Under the pieces are notes generated by a model. It searched no databases and was not told where the DNA came from. It saw only the letters and a list, made by a program, of their open reading frames with translations. Shown here piece after piece: positions 9,295 to 59,670 of a stretch of DNA of 64,000 nucleotides (positions within the stretch are counted from its first letter, which is position 1; the number at the start of each line of letters is the position of its first letter). The DNA comes from Hymenobacter psoromatis (lineage in GTDB: Bacteria > Bacteroidota > Bacteroidia > Cytophagales > Hymenobacteraceae). The DNA is taken from the NCBI GenBank assembly GCA_001596155.1, contig CP014771.1, positions 3,906,001-3,970,000 of the forward strand. Direction: 5' to 3'. The position numbers and the translations under genes are program-made.

Positions 9295-9403
9295 GTAGCG
9301 CGAAGTTTCCACTTCGTGCGCGAGCGCAGCGAGCAGGCGGCACCGGGCCGCGCGAACGACGATGCGCGCTGCGCTCGCGCACGAAGTGGAAACTTCGCGC
9401 TAC
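9295..9403. repeat. Perfect 37-bp inverted repeat (GTAGCGCGAA family)
   Basis: Arms 9295-9331 and 9367-9403 are perfect complements, starting GTAGCGCGAAGTTTCCACTT. Loop 35 bp. It starts 3 bp after the holB stop. The same outer sequence GTAGCGCGAA recurs in the palindrome at 59566-59670, so these are copies of one family. Confidence 0.9.
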
Positions 9404-10360: not shown

Positions 10361-10430
10361 TTCGCACAGAGTTCACGGAGTTGCGCAGAGTTTGTTTCTG
10401 CTCTGCGTAACTCCGTGAACTCTGTGCGAA
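10361..10430. repeat. 30-bp inverted repeat with CACAGAGTT/CACGGAGTT units
   Basis: Arms 10361-10390 and 10401-10430, one mismatch, loop 10 bp. Each arm contains three 9-10 bp units: CACAGAGTT, CACGGAGTT, GCGCAGAGT. It fills the gap between the DUF2279 gene and hemC and could also act as a terminator. Confidence 0.9.
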
Positions 10431-26053: not shown

Positions 26054-26476
26054 ATGGCTGTTTATCCCGAATACATGGTTGCCCCTATCCGCCAGGACCT
26101 GACGGAGGCGGGCTTCGAGCAACTCATGACCCCCGAAGCGGTCGATTTGGCCCTGGCCGCCACCGAAGGCACCGTGCTGGTAGCTGTTAACTCGGTGTGT
26201 GGCTGCGCCGCCGGCAAGGCCCGCCCGGCCCTCAAGCTAGCCCTCGCCAGTTCCGATAAGAAACCCACGAAGCTCGTGACCGTTTTTGCCGGCATGGAAA
26301 CCGATGCCGTAGCCAAAATGCGCGAGCACCTGCTGCCCTACCCCCCTTCATCGCCCTGCATTGGCCTCTTCAAAGATGGTGAGCTGGTGCACATGATTGA
26401 GCGCTATCACATCGAAGGCTCCGACCTCATGCGCATCGTAAACAACCTGCAAGGCGCGTTCGAAGAGTATTGCTAA
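26054..26476 (+). CDS. Bacilliredoxin family protein (BrxA/BrxB, YphP/YqiW)
   Basis: Thiol-disulfide protein of the thioredoxin-like fold; in Bacillus the family removes bacillithiol from proteins. 140 residues, the usual length. Contains the unusual redox motif Cys49-Gly-Cys51 in NSVCGCAAGKARP and the conserved ERYHIEGSDLMRIVNNLQ-like end. The stop codon TAA is also the first base triplet of the palindromic element 26474-27083. Confidence 0.95.
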   Translation: MAVYPEYMVAPIRQDLTEAGFEQLMTPEAVDLALAATEGTVLVAVNSVCGCAAGKARPALKLALASSDKKPTKLVTVFAGMETDAVAKMREHLLPYPPSSPCIGLFKDGELVHMIERYHIEGSDLMRIVNNLQGAFEEYC

Positions 26477-27080
26477 ATCACGGATTACACGGATTTTAGA
26501 CGGATTTCACGGATTTTGTGGACGGCTCCTGACGGTGGTTAGGGGCCGTTTTTGCGTTTAAGCTAGTGGTTAGTATGCATATTTGTTACAACCGATAAAA
26601 ATTACTGTAGCATGCTGCTGGATACGCGATTTAATAAGCTGACGGAAAAAGTGATTGGTTGCGCTATGCGTGTTCATACCGAATTGGGGAGTGGCTTTCC
26701 GGAGCTTATTTATCAGCGAGCACTAGCTGTGGAGTTGAAACAGGAGGAAATTAATTTTCAAGGCGAAGTTCACCTTCCTGTGTTTTACAAGGAAACTTCA
26801 ATTGGCGCGCGCCGCACCGACTTTCTGATTGAGCAGCAACTGCTTGTTGAGCTAAAAGCCACCAGTGAGCTGGTGCCCCTGCACCACGCACAAGTAATCA
26901 ATTACTTAAAAGCTTATCGCTTGGAAGTAGCCCTGCTCATCAATTTTGGAAATACCAGCCTACAGTTCAAACGCTTCGTCCAAAACAGAACACGCTAACC
27001 ACCAGCTTAAACGCAAAAACGGCCCCCAACCGCAGTCAGGAGCCGTCCACAAAATCCGTGAAATCCGTGTAATCCGTGAT

Positions 27081-27083
<3 letters not shown>
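26474..27083. mobile_element. Palindromic element A carrying a GxxExxY gene
   Basis: Inverted arms 26474-26573 and 26995-27083 are almost identical except for an 11-bp insertion in the left arm and a few substitutions. The outer part of each arm holds CGGATT units 9-11 bp apart, ending in TTTTGTGGACG. The inner part forms a terminator-like stem (ACGGCTCC/GGGGCCGT followed by a T run). The outermost triplets are the stop codon of bacilliredoxin (TAA, plus strand) and of recQ (TAA, minus strand), so the element fills the whole gap between two convergent genes. It encloses the gene at 26612-26998, whose stop lies in the right arm. Calling it mobile is an inference from elements B and C. Confidence 0.7.
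26612..26998 (+). CDS. GxxExxY protein (PD-(D/E)XK-like)
   Basis: 128 residues, ATG at 26612. The name-giving motif is GFPELIY, Gly28-x-x-Glu31-x-x-Tyr34. A PD-(D/E)XK-type core is visible as Asp70 in RRTDFLIE and Glu80-x-Lys82 in LVELKA, followed by HHAQVINYLKAY and LLINFG. Family function is not established; the fold suggests a nuclease or a nuclease-derived binding protein. The gene is clearly AT-richer than its neighbours, a sign of transfer. It is enclosed by the inverted arms of element A, as its paralogue at 37185 is by element B. Confidence 0.92.
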   Translation: MLLDTRFNKLTEKVIGCAMRVHTELGSGFPELIYQRALAVELKQEEINFQGEVHLPVFYKETSIGARRTDFLIEQQLLVELKATSELVPLHHAQVINYLKAYRLEVALLINFGNTSLQFKRFVQNRTR

Positions 27084-29291
<2,208 letters not shown>

Positions 29292-34355: not shown

Positions 34356-34463
34356 AGGAAAATCTATCATTGCGAGCAAAGCGAAGCAATCGCATCAGAA
34401 CGAGTCGTTTGAATATCGTTCTGGTGCGATTGCTTCGCTTTGTTCGCAATGATAGATTTTCCT
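34356..34463. repeat. 48-bp inverted repeat containing GCGAAGCAATCGCA, overlapping the rlmB stop
   Basis: Arms 34356-34403 and 34416-34463 with two mismatches, loop 12 bp. It fills the gap between the convergent genes manC and rlmB and reaches into the rlmB stop codon (34462-34464). The inner sequence ATTGCGAGCAAAGCGAAGCA resembles a repeat common in several phyla. Confidence 0.9.
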
Positions 34464-36752: not shown

Positions 36753-37047
36753 GGGCTTCACGATTTCGCTGGTCGTTTTTTTCTTGCTTGTACGGTTTGT
36801 GCTGCCGCAGGTGCTGCGGGCGGTGCTCGGCGGCTTTGTGCGGCAGCAGGCGCACAAGGCGCAGCAAGGCGGCTTCTACCCCCCCGGCGCCGGCCAGCCC
36901 ACGGGCGGCTACCAGCAGCAAGCCCAGCAAGCGCCCCCTACCCGGCCCGGCGAGGTGCGTGTTGATTACGTGCCGCCCACAACTTCGGGTGCCGAGCGCA
37001 AGCACGAATTTCGCGGCGGCGAGTATGTGGACTATGAAGATGTCTGA
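36751..37047 (+). CDS. DUF4834 domain-containing protein
   Basis: 98 residues. One N-terminal membrane helix (MGFTISLVVFFLLVRFVLP), then a Gln/Gly/Pro-rich spacer and a conserved charged end (KHEFRGGEYVDYEDV). Typical DUF4834 layout of Bacteroidota; function unknown. Start codon overlaps that of the divergent GWxTD gene, so its promoter must lie inside that gene. Its TGA stop is the first triplet of element B. Confidence 0.85.
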   Translation: MGFTISLVVFFLLVRFVLPQVLRAVLGGFVRQQAHKAQQGGFYPPGAGQPTGGYQQQAQQAPPTRPGEVRVDYVPPTTSGAERKHEFRGGEYVDYEDV

Positions 37048-37640
37048 ACCACGGATTCATCCGGATTTTTCGGATTAGTCGGATTTTGTGGACGATTATT
37101 TTAAGGGCTATTTATGGGATAAGCAGGAAGTTTGCGAATAACTGGCAGCTTTCTCCGTATTAACGTCTTGATTATCTTGATTTTATGCTGATTGATACCC
37201 GATTCAATAAGCTGACTGAAACCATTATTGGGTGTGCCATGCAGGTACACCGCATATTGGGTACTGGCTTTCAGGAAGTGATTTACCAGCGCAGCCTAGC
37301 AGTGGAGTTGGATGGGGCGGGCGTTGTTTTTGGGCGGGAAATCGAAATGCCACTCTTCTACAAAGGCGTAGAAGTTGGGAGCCGAAGGGTCGATTTTTTG
37401 GTAGAAGAAACCATATTGGTCGAGCTAAAAGCACTATACGAGATAACCCCCACGCACCATGCCCAAATCATCAACTACTTGGAAGCCTACCACCTGGAAG
37501 TCGGCTTACTCATCAATTTTGGCGAACCAAGCCTAAAATTCAAGCGCTTCCTAAAAAACCAGCCCCGCCACTAAAAAGCGAAGCGCTAATCGTCCACAAA
37601 ATCCGACTAATCCGAAAAATCCGGATGAATCCGTGGTTCA
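37045..37640. mobile_element. Palindromic element B carrying a second GxxExxY gene
   Basis: Arms 37045-37097 and 37588-37640 are perfect 53-bp inverted repeats. They contain four CGGATT units about 9-11 bp apart and end in TTTTGTGGACG, as in element A, although the sequence between units differs. The left arm starts with the stop codon TGA of the DUF4834 gene; the right arm ends 2 bp before the stop of the convergent DUF5686 gene. The element contains exactly one gene (37185-37574). No transposase is present. Confidence 0.72.
37185..37574 (+). CDS. GxxExxY protein (PD-(D/E)XK-like), second copy
   Basis: 129 residues, ATG at 37185. Motif GFQEVIY gives Gly28, Glu31, Tyr34; the nuclease-like core is Asp70 in RRVDFLVE and Glu80-x-Lys82 in LVELKA. 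These are the same residue numbers as in the copy at 26612, with which it shares roughly 60 percent of residues by eye, including the opening DTRFNKLTE and the HHAQxINYL segment. AT-richer than the surrounding genes. Enclosed by the perfect arms of element B. Function unknown. Confidence 0.92.
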   Translation: MLIDTRFNKLTETIIGCAMQVHRILGTGFQEVIYQRSLAVELDGAGVVFGREIEMPLFYKGVEVGSRRVDFLVEETILVELKALYEITPTHHAQIINYLEAYHLEVGLLINFGEPSLKFKRFLKNQPRH

Positions 37641-37642
37641 GA

Positions 37643-41304: not shown

Positions 41305-41383
41305 GATAACTATCGACCTCCCCCAACGGCCGGCCGCGGCACGTTTGGCCGCGGCCGGCCGTTGGGGGAGGCCGATAGTTATC
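41305..41383. repeat. 36-bp GC-rich inverted repeat
   Basis: Arms 41305-41340 and 41348-41383 with one mismatch, loop 7 bp, beginning GATAACTATCG and containing GGCCGGCCGCGG. It sits between divergent genes, where a terminator is not expected. Confidence 0.9.
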
Positions 41384-43175: not shown

Positions 43176-43280
43176 AAGAACGTCATGCTGAGCCTGTCGA
43201 AGCATTTCGCTCGCGCCGCTAGGATTAGTAATTCTAACGGCGCGAGTGAGATGCTTCGACAGGCTCAGCATGACGTTCTT
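43176..43280. repeat. 43-bp inverted repeat (GTCATGCTGAGCCTGTCGAAGCAT type)
   Basis: Arms 43176-43218 and 43238-43280 with two mismatches, loop 19 bp. It lies between convergent genes. The unit ATGCTGAGCCTGTCGAAGC is a repeat I know from many bacterial genomes. Confidence 0.9.
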
Positions 43281-44028: not shown

Positions 44029-45393
44029 GTGATAAATAAGCTACCGCCCGTTCTTTCTGACCCTATTCGCCGCCTCTGGCCGCAACACCGCTGGCTGTTG
44101 CTGGGTTTGTGGCTGCTGGTGCAGGCGGCTTTTCTGCTGAAGTCTCACGGGCCACGAGTCCTCAACGACACCCACTCCTTCCTCGACTACGCGACCAACT
44201 TGGCGGCGCACGGCCACTACCAGCCCGAGCCAGGCGCGGTGGCCGGCACCATCGAGAACAATGGGCTGCAAAACTTTGAGTATGAGCACAATCAGCGTTA
44301 CATTCTCTACCCCTGGTACCTGAGCGTCTGGCTGCGGCTGGGGGCCGGGCTCTGGGGTGTTGTGTTGGGGCAGTCGGTTATTTCGGGCCTGGCCGCCGCC
44401 GCGCTCTACGCAGCCGTGCGGCGGCTGGCGGGGGGTAGGCGCGGCGCGGCCGCGCTGGCCACGGCCCTGTTTTTAGGCTGGCCCGACATCCAGGTATTTA
44501 ACTGCGAATTGCTTACCGAGTCGCTGTTCATCAGCCTATCGGTGCTTTGTTTTTGGGCCCTGGTGCGGGTGCGCGGCGGCTGGCGAGCCGGGCTCACGCT
44601 GGCGGTTTTGTTGGTGCTCACGGCGCTGGCCCGCCCCAACGGCTTCGTGCTGACAGCTGCGGCCGGCGTAGCCGGCCTGGCGGCATTATACGTGGCGCGG
44701 CGGGGGTTATTCTGGGTGGCGATGGGTGGCGGCGTGCTGGCCGTGCCGCTGGTCGTGTGGTGGCTCAATCATCAGCTGGTCAGCTACTTCATTGTTGAAA
44801 CATATACTCGTGGTGAGCTGATGTTTGCTACCCCCGTGTGGGCCATTCACCCGAGCGCGCCGCTGGTGCTGCCGCCTGCGGGCATCGGGCAGATGTCGCG
44901 GGTGCTCTACTTCGCCGCACACAATCCCGGCTTTCTGGCCCGGCTGATGTTGGGCAAGTTGCTGGTGTTTTTCAGCAGCATTAAGCCCTATTATTCGCTG
45001 GCTCATAAGTTAATAAGCGTGCTGCTGCTGTGGCCGCTCTATTACCTGGCGGTGCGCGGTGCCCGCCGCGTGGCGGTGTGGCCGCCGGCGCGGGCGTTTC
45101 TGGCTGCCGTGCCGCTGCTACAAGCTGCCATCGTCATGCTCACCGTAGATGATTACGACGTGCGGTTTCTAGCCCCGGTGCTGCCCTTCGTGTTCGCGCT
45201 GGCGGCTTTAACAATGGGTGAATGGGTGAATGAGTTCTACTGTTTCGTTAAAAAAACAATGCTCATTCACTCATTCACTCATTCACCCATTGCTAAACCC
45301 TGCCCAGGCTTGCAGGCCGCCGGTATGCACGGCTACCACGGTGCTGCCGGGCACAAAGTGCCCTTTTTCAATCAAATCGAGCACGCTGAATAG
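44029..45393 (+). CDS. Multispanning membrane glycosyltransferase-like protein (GT-C type), 3' end altered by a repeat
   Basis: 454 residues, GTG start at 44029. Many hydrophobic helices; the first periplasmic loop contains GPRVLNDTHSFLDYATNLAAHGHY, a GT39-like acidic loop. Probably uses a polyprenyl-linked sugar; acceptor unknown. The natural C-terminus seems to lie near 45210. From 45212 the frame runs through a palindrome (ALTMGEWVNEF) and about 110 bp into the convergent deaminase gene, giving a tail unlike the rest of the protein. Confidence 0.72.
   Translation: MINKLPPVLSDPIRRLWPQHRWLLLGLWLLVQAAFLLKSHGPRVLNDTHSFLDYATNLAAHGHYQPEPGAVAGTIENNGLQNFEYEHNQRYILYPWYLSVWLRLGAGLWGVVLGQSVISGLAAAALYAAVRRLAGGRRGAAALATALFLGWPDIQVFNCELLTESLFISLSVLCFWALVRVRGGWRAGLTLAVLLVLTALARPNGFVLTAAAGVAGLAALYVARRGLFWVAMGGGVLAVPLVVWWLNHQLVSYFIVETYTRGELMFATPVWAIHPSAPLVLPPAGIGQMSRVLYFAAHNPGFLARLMLGKLLVFFSSIKPYYSLAHKLISVLLLWPLYYLAVRGARRVAVWPPARAFLAAVPLLQAAIVMLTVDDYDVRFLAPVLPFVFALAALTMGEWVNEFYCFVKKTMLIHSFTHSPIAKPCPGLQAAGMHGYHGAAGHKVPFFNQIEHAE
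45212..45292. repeat. Palindromic repeat with AATGGGTG units across two convergent 3' ends
   Basis: Left arm 45212-45234 (AATGGGTGAATGGGTGAATG), right arm 45262-45292 its complement with an extra unit. The right arm contains the stop of the deaminase gene (AAT GGG TGA). Same architecture and nearly the same unit as 4716-4813. Confidence 0.88.
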
Positions 45394-49347: not shown

Positions 49348-51993
49348 ATGCCCATTCTTTTTTCTGCCCTACCCCCCCTGCTCGGCGGCACGCTGTTACT
49401 CGCGCCCGCCCTGGATGCTGAGGTAGCCACGCTGCTGCTTGACAGCCGCCGCGTGGGTCTCACGGCGGGGGCCGTGTTCTTCGCCCTGCGCGGCCCCAAC
49501 CACGACGGCCACCACCACTTGGCGGCGCTGTATGCCAAGGGCGTGCGGCTGTTCGTGGTCGCCTACCCCCCCGCCAGCCTGGAAGCGTTCGCGGGCGCGG
49601 GCTTCGTGCTGGTGCCGGATACTCTGGTGGCCTTGCAGACGCTGGCGGCGCGGCACCGGGCGGCGTTCGCGGGGCCGGTGTGGGCCATCACGGGCTCCAA
49701 CGGCAAGACCATCGTAAAGGAATGGCTGGCCCAGTTGCTGGCCCCCGATGAGGACATCTGCCGCTCGCCCAAGAGCTACAACTCGCAGGTGGGCGTGCCG
49801 CTGAGCGTGTGGGAGCTGGCCCCCGGCCGCCACACGCTGGGCATCTTCGAGGCCGGCATCTCGGAGCGCGGCGAGATGCAGCGGCTGGCCGATATTATCC
49901 GGCCCACGCACGGCATTTTCACGACCCTCGGCACGGCCCACGACGCGGGTTTTGCTTCGGAAAATGAAAAGTTGGGCGAGAAGCTGCAACTCTTTGAATT
50001 GTCCGGCTTCGAGCTGCTGGTGTATTGCGCCGACCAGCCGGCCGTGGCCGCCGCCGTGCAGGCCCGCGCCCTGCCCGCCCTGGCCTGGACGCGCCGCGAC
50101 GCGCCCGGCGCGAGCCTGCGCTTTCGGCTCAAAGCCACCCCGGCCGGCACCACCATCGTGCGCGTGCGGCTCGGCGACGCGGCCGCCACCGCCCACTTTC
50201 CGGCCGGGCACCTGGCCGGCCGGGCCGCCGCGCGCTTCACGCTGCCCTTCGCCGATGAGCCGTCGGTGGAGAACGCGCTGCACTGCCTGGCCGTGCTGCT
50301 GTGGCGGCAATTGAGCCCCGCCACCGCCCTGGCCCCGGCCGAAATCCAGCGCCGCCTGCTGCGCCTGCACCCGGTGGCCATGCGCCTCGAAATGAAGGCC
50401 GGCCGCCACGGCTGCTACCTCCTCGACGACACCTATAATAACGACCTCGCCGGCCTCTCGCTGGCCCTCGATGCGCTGAGCCGCCAGGCCCGCCCCGGCG
50501 GCCGCACCCTCATCCTCAGCGACGTGCTCGAATCGGGCCTCAGCGGCGCGGAGCTGTATGCCCGCGTGGCGGCCCTGGTGCGCGCCCACGGCGTGACGCG
50601 GCTCATTGGGGTAGGGGAGGAGTTGAGTTATGAGTTAAGAGTTAAGAGTGAAGAGTTAAAAGTTGGAAGTTATAAAGCAGAAATAAGCGGCCAGACTGAG
50701 TTCAATCAAAAACTCTTCACTCTCAACTCTCAACTCTTAACTAAAACCTACCCCACCACCGAGGCCCTGTTAGCCGACTTGCGGCCGGGTGATTTTCAGA
50801 ACGAAACCATCCTTATTAAAGGAGCGCGGCGCTTCGGCTTTGAGCGCGTGGTGGCGGCCTTGCAGCAGGCGCAGCACGGCACAGTGCTGGAGGTGAACCT
50901 CGACGCGCTGACGCACAACTTGCAGTACTACCGCCAGCAGCTGCGGCCGGGTACTAAATTGATGGTGATGGTCAAGGCGTTTGCCTACGGCAGCGGCTCG
51001 TATGAAGTGGCCAGCCTGCTCGAATTTCAGCGGGCCGACTACCTGGCCGTGGCCTACGCCGACGAAGGCCAGCAGCTGCGTGACAACGGCATCAGCCTGC
51101 CCATCATGGTGTTGAACCCCGGCCCCGACAGCTTCGGCCAGCTGCGGCGCTACCGCCTGGAGCCCGAAATCTACTCCCTGGAGCGCCTGCGCGACTATCT
51201 GCAAGCCGCCCGCGAAGCTGCCCAGGACGAAGCCGGCTCCCTACCCCCCCTGCACCTCAAGCTCGACACCGGGATGCGCCGCCTGGGCTTTTCGGAGGAA
51301 GAATTGCCTGAATTATTGGCCCTGCTGGCGGCCCACCGCGCCGCCCTGCCGGTGGCCGGCATCATGACCCACCTGGCCGCCGCCGATGACCCGGCCCACG
51401 ACGATTTTACCCGCGGGCAGCTCGCCACTTTCGGGCGCATGGCCGCCGCCATTGAAGAAGTGCTGGGCTATTCGGCTATCAAGCACGTGCTCAATTCGGC
51501 GGGCATCCGGCGCTTTCCGGAAGCGCAGCTCGACATGGTGCGCCTCGGCGTGGGCCTCTACGGCGTGGAGGCCGGGGCCGAGGACGCGCGCAATCTGCGG
51601 CCCGTAAGCACCTTGAAAACCACCATCTCCCAGATAAAAACCCTACCCCCCGGCACCACCGTGGGCTACGGCCGCCGGGGCGCGGCCACCGCCCACGAGC
51701 GCCGGGTGGCCACGCTGGCCATCGGCTACGCCGACGGCTACGACCGGCGCTTCAGCAGCGGCGGGGGCATCGTGTTGCTGCACGGCCGCCGCGCGCCGGT
51801 GGTGGGCTCGGTGTGCATGGATATGGTGATGGTGGACGTGACCGACGTGCCCGAGGCCCGGCCCGGCGACGTGGCCATCGTCTTCGGCGAGGGGCTGGGC
51901 ATCACCGAGCTGGCCGCCCGCATTGGCACCATTCCCTACGAGCTGCTCACCAACGTGAGCGAGCGCGTGAAGCGCGTGTTCGTGAGCGAATAG
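49348..51993 (+). CDS. Bifunctional MurF (UDP-MurNAc-tripeptide:D-Ala-D-Ala ligase) / alanine racemase
   Basis: Cell-wall precursor enzyme fused to the racemase that supplies its D-alanine; the fusion is typical of Bacteroidota. 881 residues from the ATG at 49348. MurF half: ATP-binding TGSNGKT near residues 114-120, then IFEAGISERGEM and LDDTYNNDLAGL. Alr half: PLP-lysine Lys543 in VMVKAFAYGSGSYEVA, and ATLAIGYADGYDR with a metal/substrate loop before the end. Residues about 424-467 are an in-frame insertion (GEELSYELRVKSEELKVGSY...) encoded by a palindromic repeat, between IGVGEEL and TYPTTEALLADL. A GACCTTTG box lies 8 nt before the ATG. Confidence 0.93.
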   Translation: MPILFSALPPLLGGTLLLAPALDAEVATLLLDSRRVGLTAGAVFFALRGPNHDGHHHLAALYAKGVRLFVVAYPPASLEAFAGAGFVLVPDTLVALQTLAARHRAAFAGPVWAITGSNGKTIVKEWLAQLLAPDEDICRSPKSYNSQVGVPLSVWELAPGRHTLGIFEAGISERGEMQRLADIIRPTHGIFTTLGTAHDAGFASENEKLGEKLQLFELSGFELLVYCADQPAVAAAVQARALPALAWTRRDAPGASLRFRLKATPAGTTIVRVRLGDAAATAHFPAGHLAGRAAARFTLPFADEPSVENALHCLAVLLWRQLSPATALAPAEIQRRLLRLHPVAMRLEMKAGRHGCYLLDDTYNNDLAGLSLALDALSRQARPGGRTLILSDVLESGLSGAELYARVAALVRAHGVTRLIGVGEELSYELRVKSEELKVGSYKAEISGQTEFNQKLFTLNSQLLTKTYPTTEALLADLRPGDFQNETILIKGARRFGFERVVAALQQAQHGTVLEVNLDALTHNLQYYRQQLRPGTKLMVMVKAFAYGSGSYEVASLLEFQRADYLAVAYADEGQQLRDNGISLPIMVLNPGPDSFGQLRRYRLEPEIYSLERLRDYLQAAREAAQDEAGSLPPLHLKLDTGMRRLGFSEEELPELLALLAAHRAALPVAGIMTHLAAADDPAHDDFTRGQLATFGRMAAAIEEVLGYSAIKHVLNSAGIRRFPEAQLDMVRLGVGLYGVEAGAEDARNLRPVSTLKTTISQIKTLPPGTTVGYGRRGAATAHERRVATLAIGYADGYDRRFSSGGGIVLLHGRRAPVVGSVCMDMVMVDVTDVPEARPGDVAIVFGEGLGITELAARIGTIPYELLTNVSERVKRVFVSE
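50621..50742. repeat. Palindromic tandem-unit repeat inserted in frame in murF-alr
   Basis: Left arm 50621-50664 holds repeated GAGTTAAGAGTTAAGAGTGA units; right arm 50711-50742 is the complement (AACTCTTCACTCTCAACTCT). Length and content keep the reading frame open. Inserted DNA is far AT-richer than the gene. Confidence 0.9.
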
Positions 51994-53602: not shown

Positions 53603-54256
53603 ATGACCAAAGTAACCTACCCGCTGCTCGCAGCTGTTTTGCTGCTCGCCAGCTGCAATAACCTTAAAAAATCGGACGAAAAAACCACCCTCGGCGATGC
53701 TACCGCCGACACCGCCGTGGTAGCCCGCACCGGGGCCACCGTGGGCGAGGTTGCCAGCAACGCCGCCACCTCGGTCGATAGCGCGGCCAGCAAAGCTGGC
53801 AGCGCCGTTAGCGATGCCTTCGACGTGACCAAGGCCAAGTTGGCCGATGTGAAGCTGCCGGAAGTAAACCTGTCGGGGGTGACAGTGCGCGGCAACGAAA
53901 ACTACCAGATTTATGGGGTAGATGAAAAAGTGCTGTTCGACACTGGCAAAGCCGTGGTTAAGCCCACCGCTGCTGAAGCTTTAAAGCAAATCAGCGCTTC
54001 CATCAACAAACGCTACTCTGGCAAGGACGTGCGCGTGCTTGGTTTTACCGATTCGCGCGGCGACAAAAGCTACAACCGTGACCTGAGTAAGCAGCGCGCC
54101 GAGGCCGTCAAAAACTACCTCGTCGCGACCGATAAAATGGCCGCCGACCACCTTAGCACCGAGGCATTTGGCGAAACCCAGCCCGTAGCCAGCAACGCTA
54201 CCCCCAGCGGTCGCCAGGAAAACCGCCGCGTCGAAATAGCCGTGCGCATCAAATAA
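53603..54256 (+). CDS. OmpA-family lipoprotein
   Basis: 217 residues from the ATG at 53603; the ATG at 53585 is also possible. Lipoprotein signal peptide with Cys18 in LLLASCNN. A 70-residue Ala/Ser/Val-rich linker (TSVDSAASKAGSAVSDAF) leads to a C-terminal OmpA domain that binds peptidoglycan (KVLFDTGKAVVKPTAAEAL, LGFTDSRGDKSYNRDLSKQRA). Anchors the outer membrane to the wall. Its TAA stop lies in the left arm of element C. Confidence 0.9.
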   Translation: MTKVTYPLLAAVLLLASCNNLKKSDEKTTLGDATADTAVVARTGATVGEVASNAATSVDSAASKAGSAVSDAFDVTKAKLADVKLPEVNLSGVTVRGNENYQIYGVDEKVLFDTGKAVVKPTAAEALKQISASINKRYSGKDVRVLGFTDSRGDKSYNRDLSKQRAEAVKNYLVATDKMAADHLSTEAFGETQPVASNATPSGRQENRRVEIAVRIK

Positions 54257-54448
54257 GAATCACGGATTACGCGGATTTCACGGATTTTGTGGACGGCGTT
54301 GGCCGCGCGCTACTACATCCATTTGGTGCTTGATGAAGTTGAAGCTAACGTAAAAAGGCCACCCGGTTGGGTGGCCTTTTTACGTTAGCAGGACGTTCAC
54401 AAAATCCGTGAAATCCGCTAAAATCAGCGTAATCAGTGATTCTTATTT
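54251..54448. mobile_element. Palindromic element C, same arms as A and B but without a gene
   Basis: Arms 54251-54295 and 54394-54448; identical except for a 10-bp insertion in the right arm and a few substitutions. They contain the CACGGATTTCACGGATTTTGTGGACG-like core of element A (CGGATT units). Both outer ends include a stop codon, TAA of the OmpA gene and TAA of the convergent gene at 54443. In place of a gene the centre holds a terminator stem. It looks like a non-autonomous derivative. Confidence 0.7.
54344..54389. terminator. Bidirectional terminator with a perfect 21-bp stem
   Basis: Stem 54344-54364 and 54369-54389 around a 4-nt loop; it contains AAAAAGGCC and GGCCTTTTT, so it can terminate transcripts from both convergent genes. 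Confidence 0.88.
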
Positions 54449-55342
54449 GTACGCATCCACCTCGGCGCGCATCATGGCATTGAAGCGCGAGCCATTGTTG
54501 GCGAGCGTTACCAGGTTCCAGCCCCGGCCGATGGCATAGCTCCAGGTGCGGCTGTCCTTAAACTCGAACGTAGGGCGCAGAATCTGGCCGTAGGGCGTAT
54601 AGTTGTCCATGAAGTTGGTGGTGTAGAACTTGTCGCCGCTCACAATCCACTCCATTGCCACGTAGAAGCCTTCTTCCGGTGCCATCAGGTTGTAGGGCGA
54701 TAAATCGACCGTAAACCACTCGCCGCCGCGCGCCGCCGATACGATAACGCTCTCCGTGAGCATGTCCTCGTTGGGAGCATTATAGTTACCGTTGGCTTTG
54801 TAAATCCGCACCCGGAAGGGCTCGCGCGGGAAGCCATTTTCGCCAATGTAGAATGACACCGAACGAATGGCACCCAGCTTCTTCGACTTCTCGTTTTTGC
54901 ACATAAACGCGTACTGACTGCCGGGCATGCCCTGAATCATGCCCGCGCCCGGCGAGTTGGAGTGCGCACCCAGCGTCAGGGGACGCACTTTGCTGGCCTC
55001 AATCTGCACGTTGGACAGCGCAATAGCCTGCCGGGGCAGCTGCAGAATAACTTCCTCCATGTTGGTGCCGCGCTTCACAAATAAGGCCGTTCGCTTGTAG
55101 CCCAGCGCCATCACGATAATCGAGTCTTCGGTCACCTTGGTGGGCATGGCCAGCTGAAAATAGCCATATTCGTTGGTGAGAGCACCGGTCTGTTCTTCCC
55201 GCAGGTTAATGGAAGCGAAAGGAATAGGGTCCTGCGTCTTTTCATCCACTATGCGGCCCGTAATGCGGCCCTCCTGCTGCGCCCAGCTGAGTGCAGGCCA
55301 CAAGTTTGCGGCTAATAAAAGTACTAGTAAACGCTTAAGCAT
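54443..55342 (-). CDS. Carboxypeptidase-regulatory-like domain protein
   Basis: 299 residues, ATG at 55342, signal peptide ending LSWAQ. CarboxypepD_reg-like domain at about residues 24-105 (GRITGRIVDEKTQDPIPFASI, YGYFQLAMPT). The C-terminal ~180 residues form a second, beta-rich domain with SVSFYIGENGFPREPFRVRI and GFYVAMEWIVSGDKFY. Envelope protein of unknown role. Paralogue of the next gene on the left, with which it shares most of these segments. Exact -7 box TAAATTTG (minus strand, 55376-55383), with a TTG about 18 nt further upstream. Confidence 0.83.
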   Translation of the reverse strand: MLKRLLVLLLAANLWPALSWAQQEGRITGRIVDEKTQDPIPFASINLREEQTGALTNEYGYFQLAMPTKVTEDSIIVMALGYKRTALFVKRGTNMEEVILQLPRQAIALSNVQIEASKVRPLTLGAHSNSPGAGMIQGMPGSQYAFMCKNEKSKKLGAIRSVSFYIGENGFPREPFRVRIYKANGNYNAPNEDMLTESVIVSAARGGEWFTVDLSPYNLMAPEEGFYVAMEWIVSGDKFYTTNFMDNYTPYGQILRPTFEFKDSRTWSYAIGRGWNLVTLANNGSRFNAMMRAEVDAYK

Positions 55343-55896: not shown

Positions 55897-56817
55897 TTAT
55901 TTAATCATGTCAACTTCGGCCTTAATCATGGCATTGTAGTGCTGGCCGGCCGACGTGGCCATCGTGAGCAGCGTCCAGCCCTTGCCGATGCTGAAGTTCC
56001 AGGTGCGGCTTTCCTTGAATTCGAAGGTGGGGCGCATAATCTGGCCGTAGGGCGTGTAGCTCTCGTCCATGAAGTTGGTATTGAAGAACTTATCGCCGCT
56101 CACAATCCATTCCATCGCCACGAAGAAGCCTTCTTCCGGCGCCACCACGTTGTAGGGCGTCAGGTCCACGGTGTACCACTGGCCGCCCTGGGGGGCCGAC
56201 ACTACCACGTTGTCGGTGAGAATGTCCGTGCTGGGCGCGTTGTAGTTGCCGTCGGCCTTGTAGAGGCGCACGCGGAAGGGTTCGCGCGGGAAGCCATTTT
56301 CGCCGATGTAGAACGATACCGAGCGGATATTGCCCAGGCGCTTATTCTTGTCATTCTTCACAAAAAAGGCGCATTGGCTACCGGGTTGGCCTTGCATCAG
56401 GCCCTCGCTGGGGCGGTTGGCAGTGGCACCCAGGCCCAGGTTTTTGACCTTGCCGCCCTTCACTACTACGGCTTGCAGGGCGATGGCCCGGCGGCTCACC
56501 TCCAGCACCATATTAGCCATTGGCTTGCCCCGCTGCACCGCGATGGCTAGGTGCTCATAACCCAGCGCCATCACAATGAGCGAGTCGGTTTCGCCTTTTG
56601 ATGGCCCAGGCAGTTGAAACACCCCAAACTCATTGCTGAGGGCACCGGTCTGCTCTTCTTTCAGGCTGAGCGAAGTGAAGGGCAACGGCTCTTTGGTGGC
56701 CTTGTCGATGATTTTGCCGGCGAGCATGGTGGCAGCCGGCGAGGCAGCGGTTTGCGCTTGTGCGACCCCGCTAGTAGTGCATAAAAATAATGCAAAATAA
56801 AGTAGGCGTTTTAACAT
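55897..56817 (-). CDS. Carboxypeptidase-regulatory-like domain protein, paralogue
   Basis: 306 residues, ATG at 56817, signal peptide ending TSGVAQAQ. Same two-domain layout as the gene at 54443: CarboxypepD_reg-like (GKIIDKATKEPLPFTSLSL, FGVFQLPGPS) and the conserved FYIGENGFPREPFRVRLYKA and EGFFVAMEWIVSGDKFFNTN segments. Both genes are on the same strand but 554 bp apart, each with its own promoter, so they are duplicates under separate control. Function unknown; probably periplasmic or outer-membrane associated. Confidence 0.83.
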   Translation of the reverse strand: MLKRLLYFALFLCTTSGVAQAQTAASPAATMLAGKIIDKATKEPLPFTSLSLKEEQTGALSNEFGVFQLPGPSKGETDSLIVMALGYEHLAIAVQRGKPMANMVLEVSRRAIALQAVVVKGGKVKNLGLGATANRPSEGLMQGQPGSQCAFFVKNDKNKRLGNIRSVSFYIGENGFPREPFRVRLYKADGNYNAPSTDILTDNVVVSAPQGGQWYTVDLTPYNVVAPEEGFFVAMEWIVSGDKFFNTNFMDESYTPYGQIMRPTFEFKESRTWNFSIGKGWTLLTMATSAGQHYNAMIKAEVDMIK

Positions 56818-59565: not shown

Positions 59566-59670
59566 GCAACGGGGAGTAGCGCGAACTTTGTAGTTCGCGT
59601 CTCCGCGCCGCTATACTGGCTTTAACGGCGCAGGGACGCGAACTACAAAGTTCGCGCTACTCCCCGTTGC
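59566..59670. repeat. 45-bp inverted repeat (GTAGCGCGAA family)
   Basis: Arms 59566-59610 and 59626-59670, about three mismatches, loop 15 bp. Contains GTAGCGCGAACTTTGTAGTT, the same outer segment as the palindrome at 9295-9403. Confidence 0.88.

Follow-up and report, generated by a model that had tools for sequence, protein, structure and literature searches.

The window analysed here, a 64,000-nucleotide (64-kb) stretch of the Hymenobacter psoromatis genome, holds a small GxxExxY gene set between long inverted arms in which a short word recurs; such arms accompany GxxExxY genes in many phyla, with a word that follows the clade of the protein. Gene-less arms far outnumber the genes, and in two phyla, exceptions apart, genomes with the gene have more of them; the abundant and patchy unit is the gene-less arm, not the gene. 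By analogy with the REP/RAYT systems, we see about an even chance that the arms and GxxExxY form a partnership of repeat and nuclease, in which an enzyme unrelated to RAYT would bind and cleave the arms and repair-driven copying would multiply them. We found no description of GxxExxY arms in the open-access literature searched, where the family name occurs in passing mentions only, and no known function for this widespread family.

Element A lies at the bacilliredoxin/recQ site (Table 1). Two inverted repeats, one of 78 nt at 94% identity (26496-26573/26995-27072) and one of 24 nt at 100% (26473-26496/27061-27084), together make up its 100- and 89-nt arms, and GxxExxY is the sole ORF of at least 60 aa between them. 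CGGATT occurs at 26481, 26490, 26501 and 26510 in the left arm (spacing 9, 11, 9) and, inverted, at 27053, 27062 and 27071 in the right. The first-pass annotation had described an AT-rich GxxExxY gene enclosed by 100- and 89-bp arms whose outermost triplets are stop codons, and all of this was recovered: the inverted repeats surround an intact gene, the bordering TAA triplets end bacilliredoxin on the + strand and recQ on the - strand, and the gene has a GC content of 46% vs 62% for the window. Two further statements needed correction. The stem had been read as facing outward, but its T-runs sit on the gene side and would halt transcripts of the neighbours as they enter the element. Element A had also been presented as a single case, but another GxxExxY gene with arms lies at 37043-37642 of the window, and a pair of arms without a gene at 54250-54449. 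With up to three mismatches, CACGGATTACACGGATT matches the window 9 times, compared with a mean of 0.09 and a maximum of 1 in 100 shuffles.

Table 1. Features of element A, the second GxxExxY element and the gene-less palindrome, in window positions
Feature	Position	Strand	Remarks
Bacilliredoxin, host neighbour	26054..26476	+	ORF; name from the first-pass annotation; orthologous site compared in 30 genomes
Element A, left arm	26474..26573	+	four CGGATT copies and a terminator-like stem; first triplet is the TAA stop of bacilliredoxin
Terminator-like stem and T-run in left arm	26522..26553	+	would stop transcripts from the bacilliredoxin side; read by eye, unscored
GxxExxY gene (type I), 128 aa, predicted PD-(D/E)XK fold	26612..26998	+	profiles, model, alignment
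Element A, right arm, inverted	26995..27083	-	three CGGATT copies; 11 nt shorter than the left arm; last triplet is the recQ stop
Terminator-like stem in right arm	27015..27048	-	would stop recQ transcripts; read by eye, unscored
recQ, host neighbour	27081..29291	-	ORF; name from the first-pass annotation
Second GxxExxY element, left arm	37043..37098	+	100% inverted repeat
Second GxxExxY gene (type I), 129 aa	37185..37574	+	ORF, family match
Second GxxExxY element, right arm	37587..37642	-	adjoins the stop of the convergent gene at 37643
Gene-less palindrome, left arm	54250..54295	+	directly after the stop of ORF 53432-54256
Gene-less palindrome, right arm	54394..54449	-	terminator-like palindrome between the arms

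The protein of element A matches TIGR04256 at 138.8 bits (cut-off 35) and PF13366 at 136.7 bits (cut-off 22), and the two profile libraries searched gave no other family at E up to 1. A profile search among solved structures returned 0 sequence relatives at E up to 1; the best PDB matches of the structure model (pLDDT 94.6) are mostly PD-(D/E)XK nucleases. Residues G28, E31, D70, K82, Q94 and N111 are invariant in 67 aligned family sequences, E80 is conserved in at least 90% of them, and the active-site set of the window protein comprises E31, D70, E80-x-K82 and Q94. Modelled fold and full active site place the protein in the PD-(D/E)XK superfamily, as a predicted nuclease. Unlike Cas4- and RecB-like PD-(D/E)XK proteins, it has 128 aa with a single cysteine, so that an iron-sulphur cluster of its own is not expected, and its gene neighbours are bacilliredoxin and recQ. 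The family is widespread: one scan gave at least 555 pattern stretches that encode GxxExxY relatives, and carriers make up 90 of 150 genomes in the window's family (Hymenobacteraceae) and 77 of 99 in the Nostoc paludosum family. Two protein clades, type I and type II, are visible. We rejected a role as a defence gene, for which there were weak Cas4b matches only. Phage and plasmid cargo were rejected as well: a single query found the type II protein in 0 of 50,697 phage records, another gave 62 pattern stretches in viral contigs of which none was confirmed by type II alignment, the second protein has a weak PHROG match to an entry whose function is not known, and one query found the window protein in 8 of 72,556 plasmid records.

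Most of the GxxExxY loci examined have inverted arms. Among 94 loci of the window's family, which are the best-scoring places of a longer list, 89 have arms with a score above 30 (median 78 for the best inverted repeat between the 440-nt flanks), while 237 fake-gene controls, placed 1.1-2 kb from the gene where they may touch real arms, have a median of 20, a 99th percentile of 30.6 and a maximum of 47. Named loci from many phyla exceed 30 in 55 of 80 cases vs 1 of 144 controls (51 of 76 when four Hymenobacter records are left out), some of the 55 being inverted repeats without clear words, such as L214; the 80 include Bacteroidota, Ignavibacteria, Cyanobacteria, Chloroflexi, Planctomycetota, Verrucomicrobiota, Acidobacteria, SAR324 and one Methanophagales archaeon. 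The proposed tabulation of arms across GxxExxY genes thus gave frequencies far above controls in both sets, and we encountered neither a gene that is armless at the loci of all relatives nor arms that lack any association with GxxExxY, though gene-less arms are common.

Arms contain a word of 6-7 nt several times over, at intervals of about 9-12 nt. At the 89 armed loci the class of this word goes with the clade of the protein: GATT words accompany type I proteins in 43 cases, with AGAG in 1 and an unclassed word in 1, and AGAG words accompany type II proteins in 41, with GATT in 2, one further locus being without clade assignment (Fisher p 3e-21, for word classes defined after viewing the arms). 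This comparison leaves aside the 80 named loci, whose automatic subfamily labels are unreliable. Within the clades, the more alike two proteins are, the more alike are their arms (Mantel rho 0.55, n=42, and 0.58, n=43; 0 of 999 permutations as high), and type II words recur across phyla. As word and clade vary together, it is plausible that GxxExxY acts on its own arms. The arms thereby give GxxExxY a concrete candidate substrate and predict a word for each protein, and a nuclease with clade-specific words would be a natural set for studying change in DNA recognition. The spacing by helical turns noted at first reading holds as an approximation and is not universal; we rejected strict helical-turn spacing, with lag peaks at 9, 10, 18 and 19 for type I, at 9, 10, 12 and 20-24 for type II, and at 8, 10, 12 and 22 in other phyla. 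At L245 (genome G197, second site), three tandem arm copies with differing spacer letters stand at a stop codon beside the GxxExxY gene.

The window's own genome has four GxxExxY genes. CGGATT arms flank two of them, and the arms are of the CACGGAGTT type at L001 and of the CGCGGAAG type at L004. Since ACGGATTNCACGGATT, with up to two mismatches, matches this genome 79 times forward and 79 times in reverse (reversed control, 4 and 3), most of its arms stand without a gene. The typical arm is about 47 nt long, has three or four word copies and usually belongs to an inverted pair. We read 36 distinct sites from the places listed, three of them within the window, and after removal of one duplicate site found an arm at 64 of the 72 ends. 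The spacer of gene-less arms varies among the sites read and often contains a terminator-like palindrome, as judged by eye.

The position of these arms bears on a rival explanation, in which the arms are 3'-end elements useful to the host (stabilisers of mRNA 3' ends, bidirectional terminators, or topology or nucleoid sites), which GxxExxY, as a nuclease of the host, would process or regulate with no mobility involved. We regard this reading as unlikely. In the own genome, 50 of the 64 arms lie behind the stop codon of a long ORF, with 3-5 nt between the stop and the first word in 33 cases (exactly 4 in 24), and an arm so placed would be same-sense in both convergent mRNAs. The terminator-like palindromes between many arms (by eye) suit the same role, and so do a mostly vertical gene and the strong purifying selection on its protein at the one site compared, where synonymous sites are saturated in five genomes (pS 0.75-0.90) at pN 0.08-0.22. 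The rival accounts poorly for the 10 of 64 own-genome arms that adjoin a start codon (the remaining 4 adjoin neither stop nor start) and for the patchiness of arms at orthologous sites. In five other genomes, moreover, 32 of 44 gene-less type II arms at 19 loci are near neither stop nor start, 9 are near a stop (8-60 nt) and 3 near a start (L345, which holds a GxxExxY gene, is excluded), so that the stop-codon rule was rejected as universal. Nor do the mismatches between arms speak for a role in RNA. Read on the gene strand, they comprise 112 of the G.U type vs 144 of the A.C type and 265 transversions over 6,038 positions in 114 loci with a score above 40; because there is no G.U excess, RNA pairing of the gene strand is not what keeps the arms alike. 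An RNA hairpin under selection was rejected on this ground, and the window has no Rfam family at the gathering score. In the genome of the Acidobacteria record L227, the gene-less type II word pairs of L346, L347, L349 and L351 face outward from a short centre, whereas the arms of GxxExxY genes face inward.

The preferred reading, that of a repeat and its nuclease, draws on the link between word number and gene. Within the genus, the pattern CGGATTN{3,5}CGGATT has a median of 71 matches in the genomes with a type I gene (n=60) vs 14 in those without (n=60, counting as gene-less G053 and G170, which have type I-like fragments), and the reversed control gives 0-2 per strand, once 4. For CGCARAGN{2,4}CGCARAG in the Nostoc paludosum family the medians are 37 with GxxExxY (77 genomes) vs 1 without (22 genomes); these comparisons of gene and word count ignore phylogeny, and a few of the matches come from the arms of the gene itself. 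Exceptions run in both directions. Among genus genomes, 15 of the 60 without a type I gene have at least 30 word pairs and 3 of the 60 gene-bearing ones have 20 or fewer; in the Nostoc family, 4 of the 22 gene-less genomes have 11-35 and 7 of the 77 gene-bearing ones have fewer than 5. In 35 other type II genomes the second pattern gives 985 matches vs 20 for the reversed control, with none in 6 of the 35. Three genus genomes (G150, G074, G086) have no GxxExxY match, yet they hold 65-68 CGGATT word pairs, which are either relics after gene loss or arms kept by something else.

If the partnership exists, its repeat unit would be the arm of about 47 nt with three or four clade-specific words, usually in an inverted pair, and its enzyme would be GxxExxY, a small PD-(D/E)XK nuclease encoded in the middle of a few arm pairs. 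The nuclease would recognise the words of its own clade and nick or cut DNA at the arms or at a cruciform that they form. Repair of the break could then copy arms to new intergenic places and could also keep paired arms alike, and coding sequence would limit the spread, which may be why arms in the own genome end at stop codons. Repair copying alone leaves unaccounted for the terminators that are flanked by arms on both sides. Should this reading be true, REP-like repeats arose a further time with an enzyme of another kind, and a cause would be at hand for many periodic repeats of Bacteroidota and cyanobacteria that are so far unexplained.

Passages of an article on the REP/BIME and RAYT systems (PMC3733652) describe small repeats in many copies, often as inverted pairs and mostly 3' of genes, whose abundance varies by species and strain. 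The likeness to the REPtrons and TIRtrons treated there lies in a dedicated enzyme gene flanked by repeats together with dispersed gene-less repeats. The differences are that GxxExxY is a PD-(D/E)XK protein and RAYT an HUH tyrosine transposase; that GxxExxY arms are word arrays of about 47 nt, while REPs are GTAG-tagged palindromes of 20-40 bp in the same passages (PMC3733652); and that the GxxExxY gene rarely changes site. Those passages also report no obvious correlation of repeat number with enzyme for tyrosine transposases, whereas the copy number of GxxExxY arms tracks the gene (PMC3733652). As both the HUH enzyme and the GTAG tag are absent, the GxxExxY element is not itself a member of REP/RAYT.

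For each of three sites, the 30 best-matching orthologous loci were compared. At the bacilliredoxin site the gene is present in 6 loci (2 in the window orientation, 4 flipped), a gene-less palindrome in 6 and neither in 18. The second site has the gene in 4 (1 in the window orientation, 3 flipped), a gene-less arm pair in 5, a single arm in 4 and no arm in 17. The gene-less site has the gene in 0, arm pairs in 7, some palindrome in 10 more (several with other words) and none in 13; its arms enclose a terminator-like palindrome, and one of this kind is kept in armless relatives, as judged by eye. Empty sites in relatives, which the first-pass annotation had suggested looking for, therefore exist. 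Among 147 between-genome gene pairs that are at least 80% identical, and which are not independent, 117 share the same site, 21 share it in flipped orientation, 2 share one flank and 7 are elsewhere; pairs elsewhere number 154 of 238 at 70-80% identity and 858 of 1,019 at 60-70%. Since close pairs mostly share a site, changes of site by the gene are rare, and its flips in place are probably made possible by the inverted arms. The earlier proposal of a minimal mobile element thus holds in so far as the arms are patchy, abundant and linked to the gene, but the gene itself mostly stays put, and with its close relatives at the same site we rejected a mobile element in the usual sense as the main description. 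Four loci of the second site (L236, L238, L239, L243) have a lone arm at the stop codon, with no partner detected within 900 nt.

The coexistence of gene-bearing, gene-less and empty sites also suits a selfish gene of the homing type. A homing endonuclease is encoded within a site that it could itself target; here GxxExxY would cut gene-less palindromes of other origin at the words, be copied into the centre by repair and be protected there by the interruption of the palindrome. The 6, 6 and 18 loci at the bacilliredoxin site, the similar second site and the match of words to protein clade would follow from this. We nevertheless hold it to be quite improbable, with 7 of 147 close pairs at another site and 4 genes in the own genome, where homing among the dozens of near-identical arm pairs of one genome would predict many gene copies. 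The GxxExxY element differs from homing endonucleases in the same respects, having many word arrays per genome, few gene copies and few site changes. MITEs too are inverted repeats that lack the gene of a related form, but the middles of GxxExxY arm pairs differ among the sites read and often hold terminators, and a transposase ORF is absent between the arms.

The two arms of a site evolve in concert. Left and right arms differ by 4.0, 5.4 and 7.1% at three sites (10, 9 and 8 loci), and left arms of the same site differ between species by 17.9, 18.2 and 27.5%. Across 22 sites of the own genome the difference is 4.7% within a site vs 10.4% between sites, and in 76% of comparisons an arm is matched better by its own partner than by the right arm of another site; the within-site values are biased low, as only sites with a palindrome score of at least 45 entered. 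At the bacilliredoxin site, the arms are still recognisable in the five genomes where the synonymous sites of the gene are saturated. Concerted arms, together with flips in place and the ending of arms at stop codons in the own genome, would also be expected if the arms were by-products of template switching in replication at terminator hairpins, extended outward to the coding sequence, with the gene as a passenger. This explanation leaves both the clade-specific words common to several phyla and the link of copy number to the gene unexplained, and we consider it highly improbable.

A second family has the same architecture. TIGR02436, a four-helix-bundle family that we take to be that of the S23/IVS protein, occurs in 50 of 61 genus genomes. 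Of the 30 loci examined for it (L315-L344), 26 have inverted arms with a score above 30, whereas 60 controls reach at most 28, and their arm words recur strictly every 7 nt (z 23.8 at lag 7, with peaks at 14, 21 and 28). A paper reportedly deals with heptameric repeats in Xanthomonas and Nostoc (PMC4692102). According to passages of an article on the intervening sequence (IVS) of 23S rRNA, tandem heptamers lie in front of the S23 ORF in the Coxiella IVS, and the IVS is excised by RNase III (PMC4990558). The GxxExxY element resembles the IVS of those passages in having a small ORF between inverted repeats (PMC4990558); it differs in that GxxExxY is unrelated to the S23 protein, that it lies between protein genes and that its word period is 9-12, not 7. 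Tentatively, and with some doubt, we suggest that both families belong to a general and undescribed class of bacterial and archaeal elements, each made of inverted arms of a short periodic word and one small protein gene, in which the clade of the protein would set the word. At least two unrelated proteins would use this arrangement, GxxExxY with 9-12-nt spacing and the four-helix-bundle/S23 family with a strict 7-nt period, and the 23S rRNA IVS would be one stray member. The protein would make, spread and homogenise the arms, which in Hymenobacter would be written beside stop codons around native terminators.

The window contains further inverted repeats without a gene. Those at 50614-50754 and 45204-45300 have 7- to 8-nt periodic words (GAGTTAA-like and AATGGGTG-like), like the arms of the four-helix-bundle family, and that at 10361-10430 has CACAGAGTT/CACGGAGTT words of the type seen in the arms of L001, a type II gene of the own genome. 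Five long gene-less palindromes, at 9295-9403, 34356-34463, 41305-41383, 43176-43280 and 59566-59670, have arms of 36-52 nt that are 92-98% complementary and belong to other sequence families, for example CATGCTGAGCCTGTCGAAGCA and ATTGCGAGCAAAGCGAAGCAATC. The gene to the right of the gene-less palindrome of Table 1 (54499-55231) has a diverged duplicate at 55956-56691, about 1.46 kb further on, with 70-77% DNA identity in three stretches.
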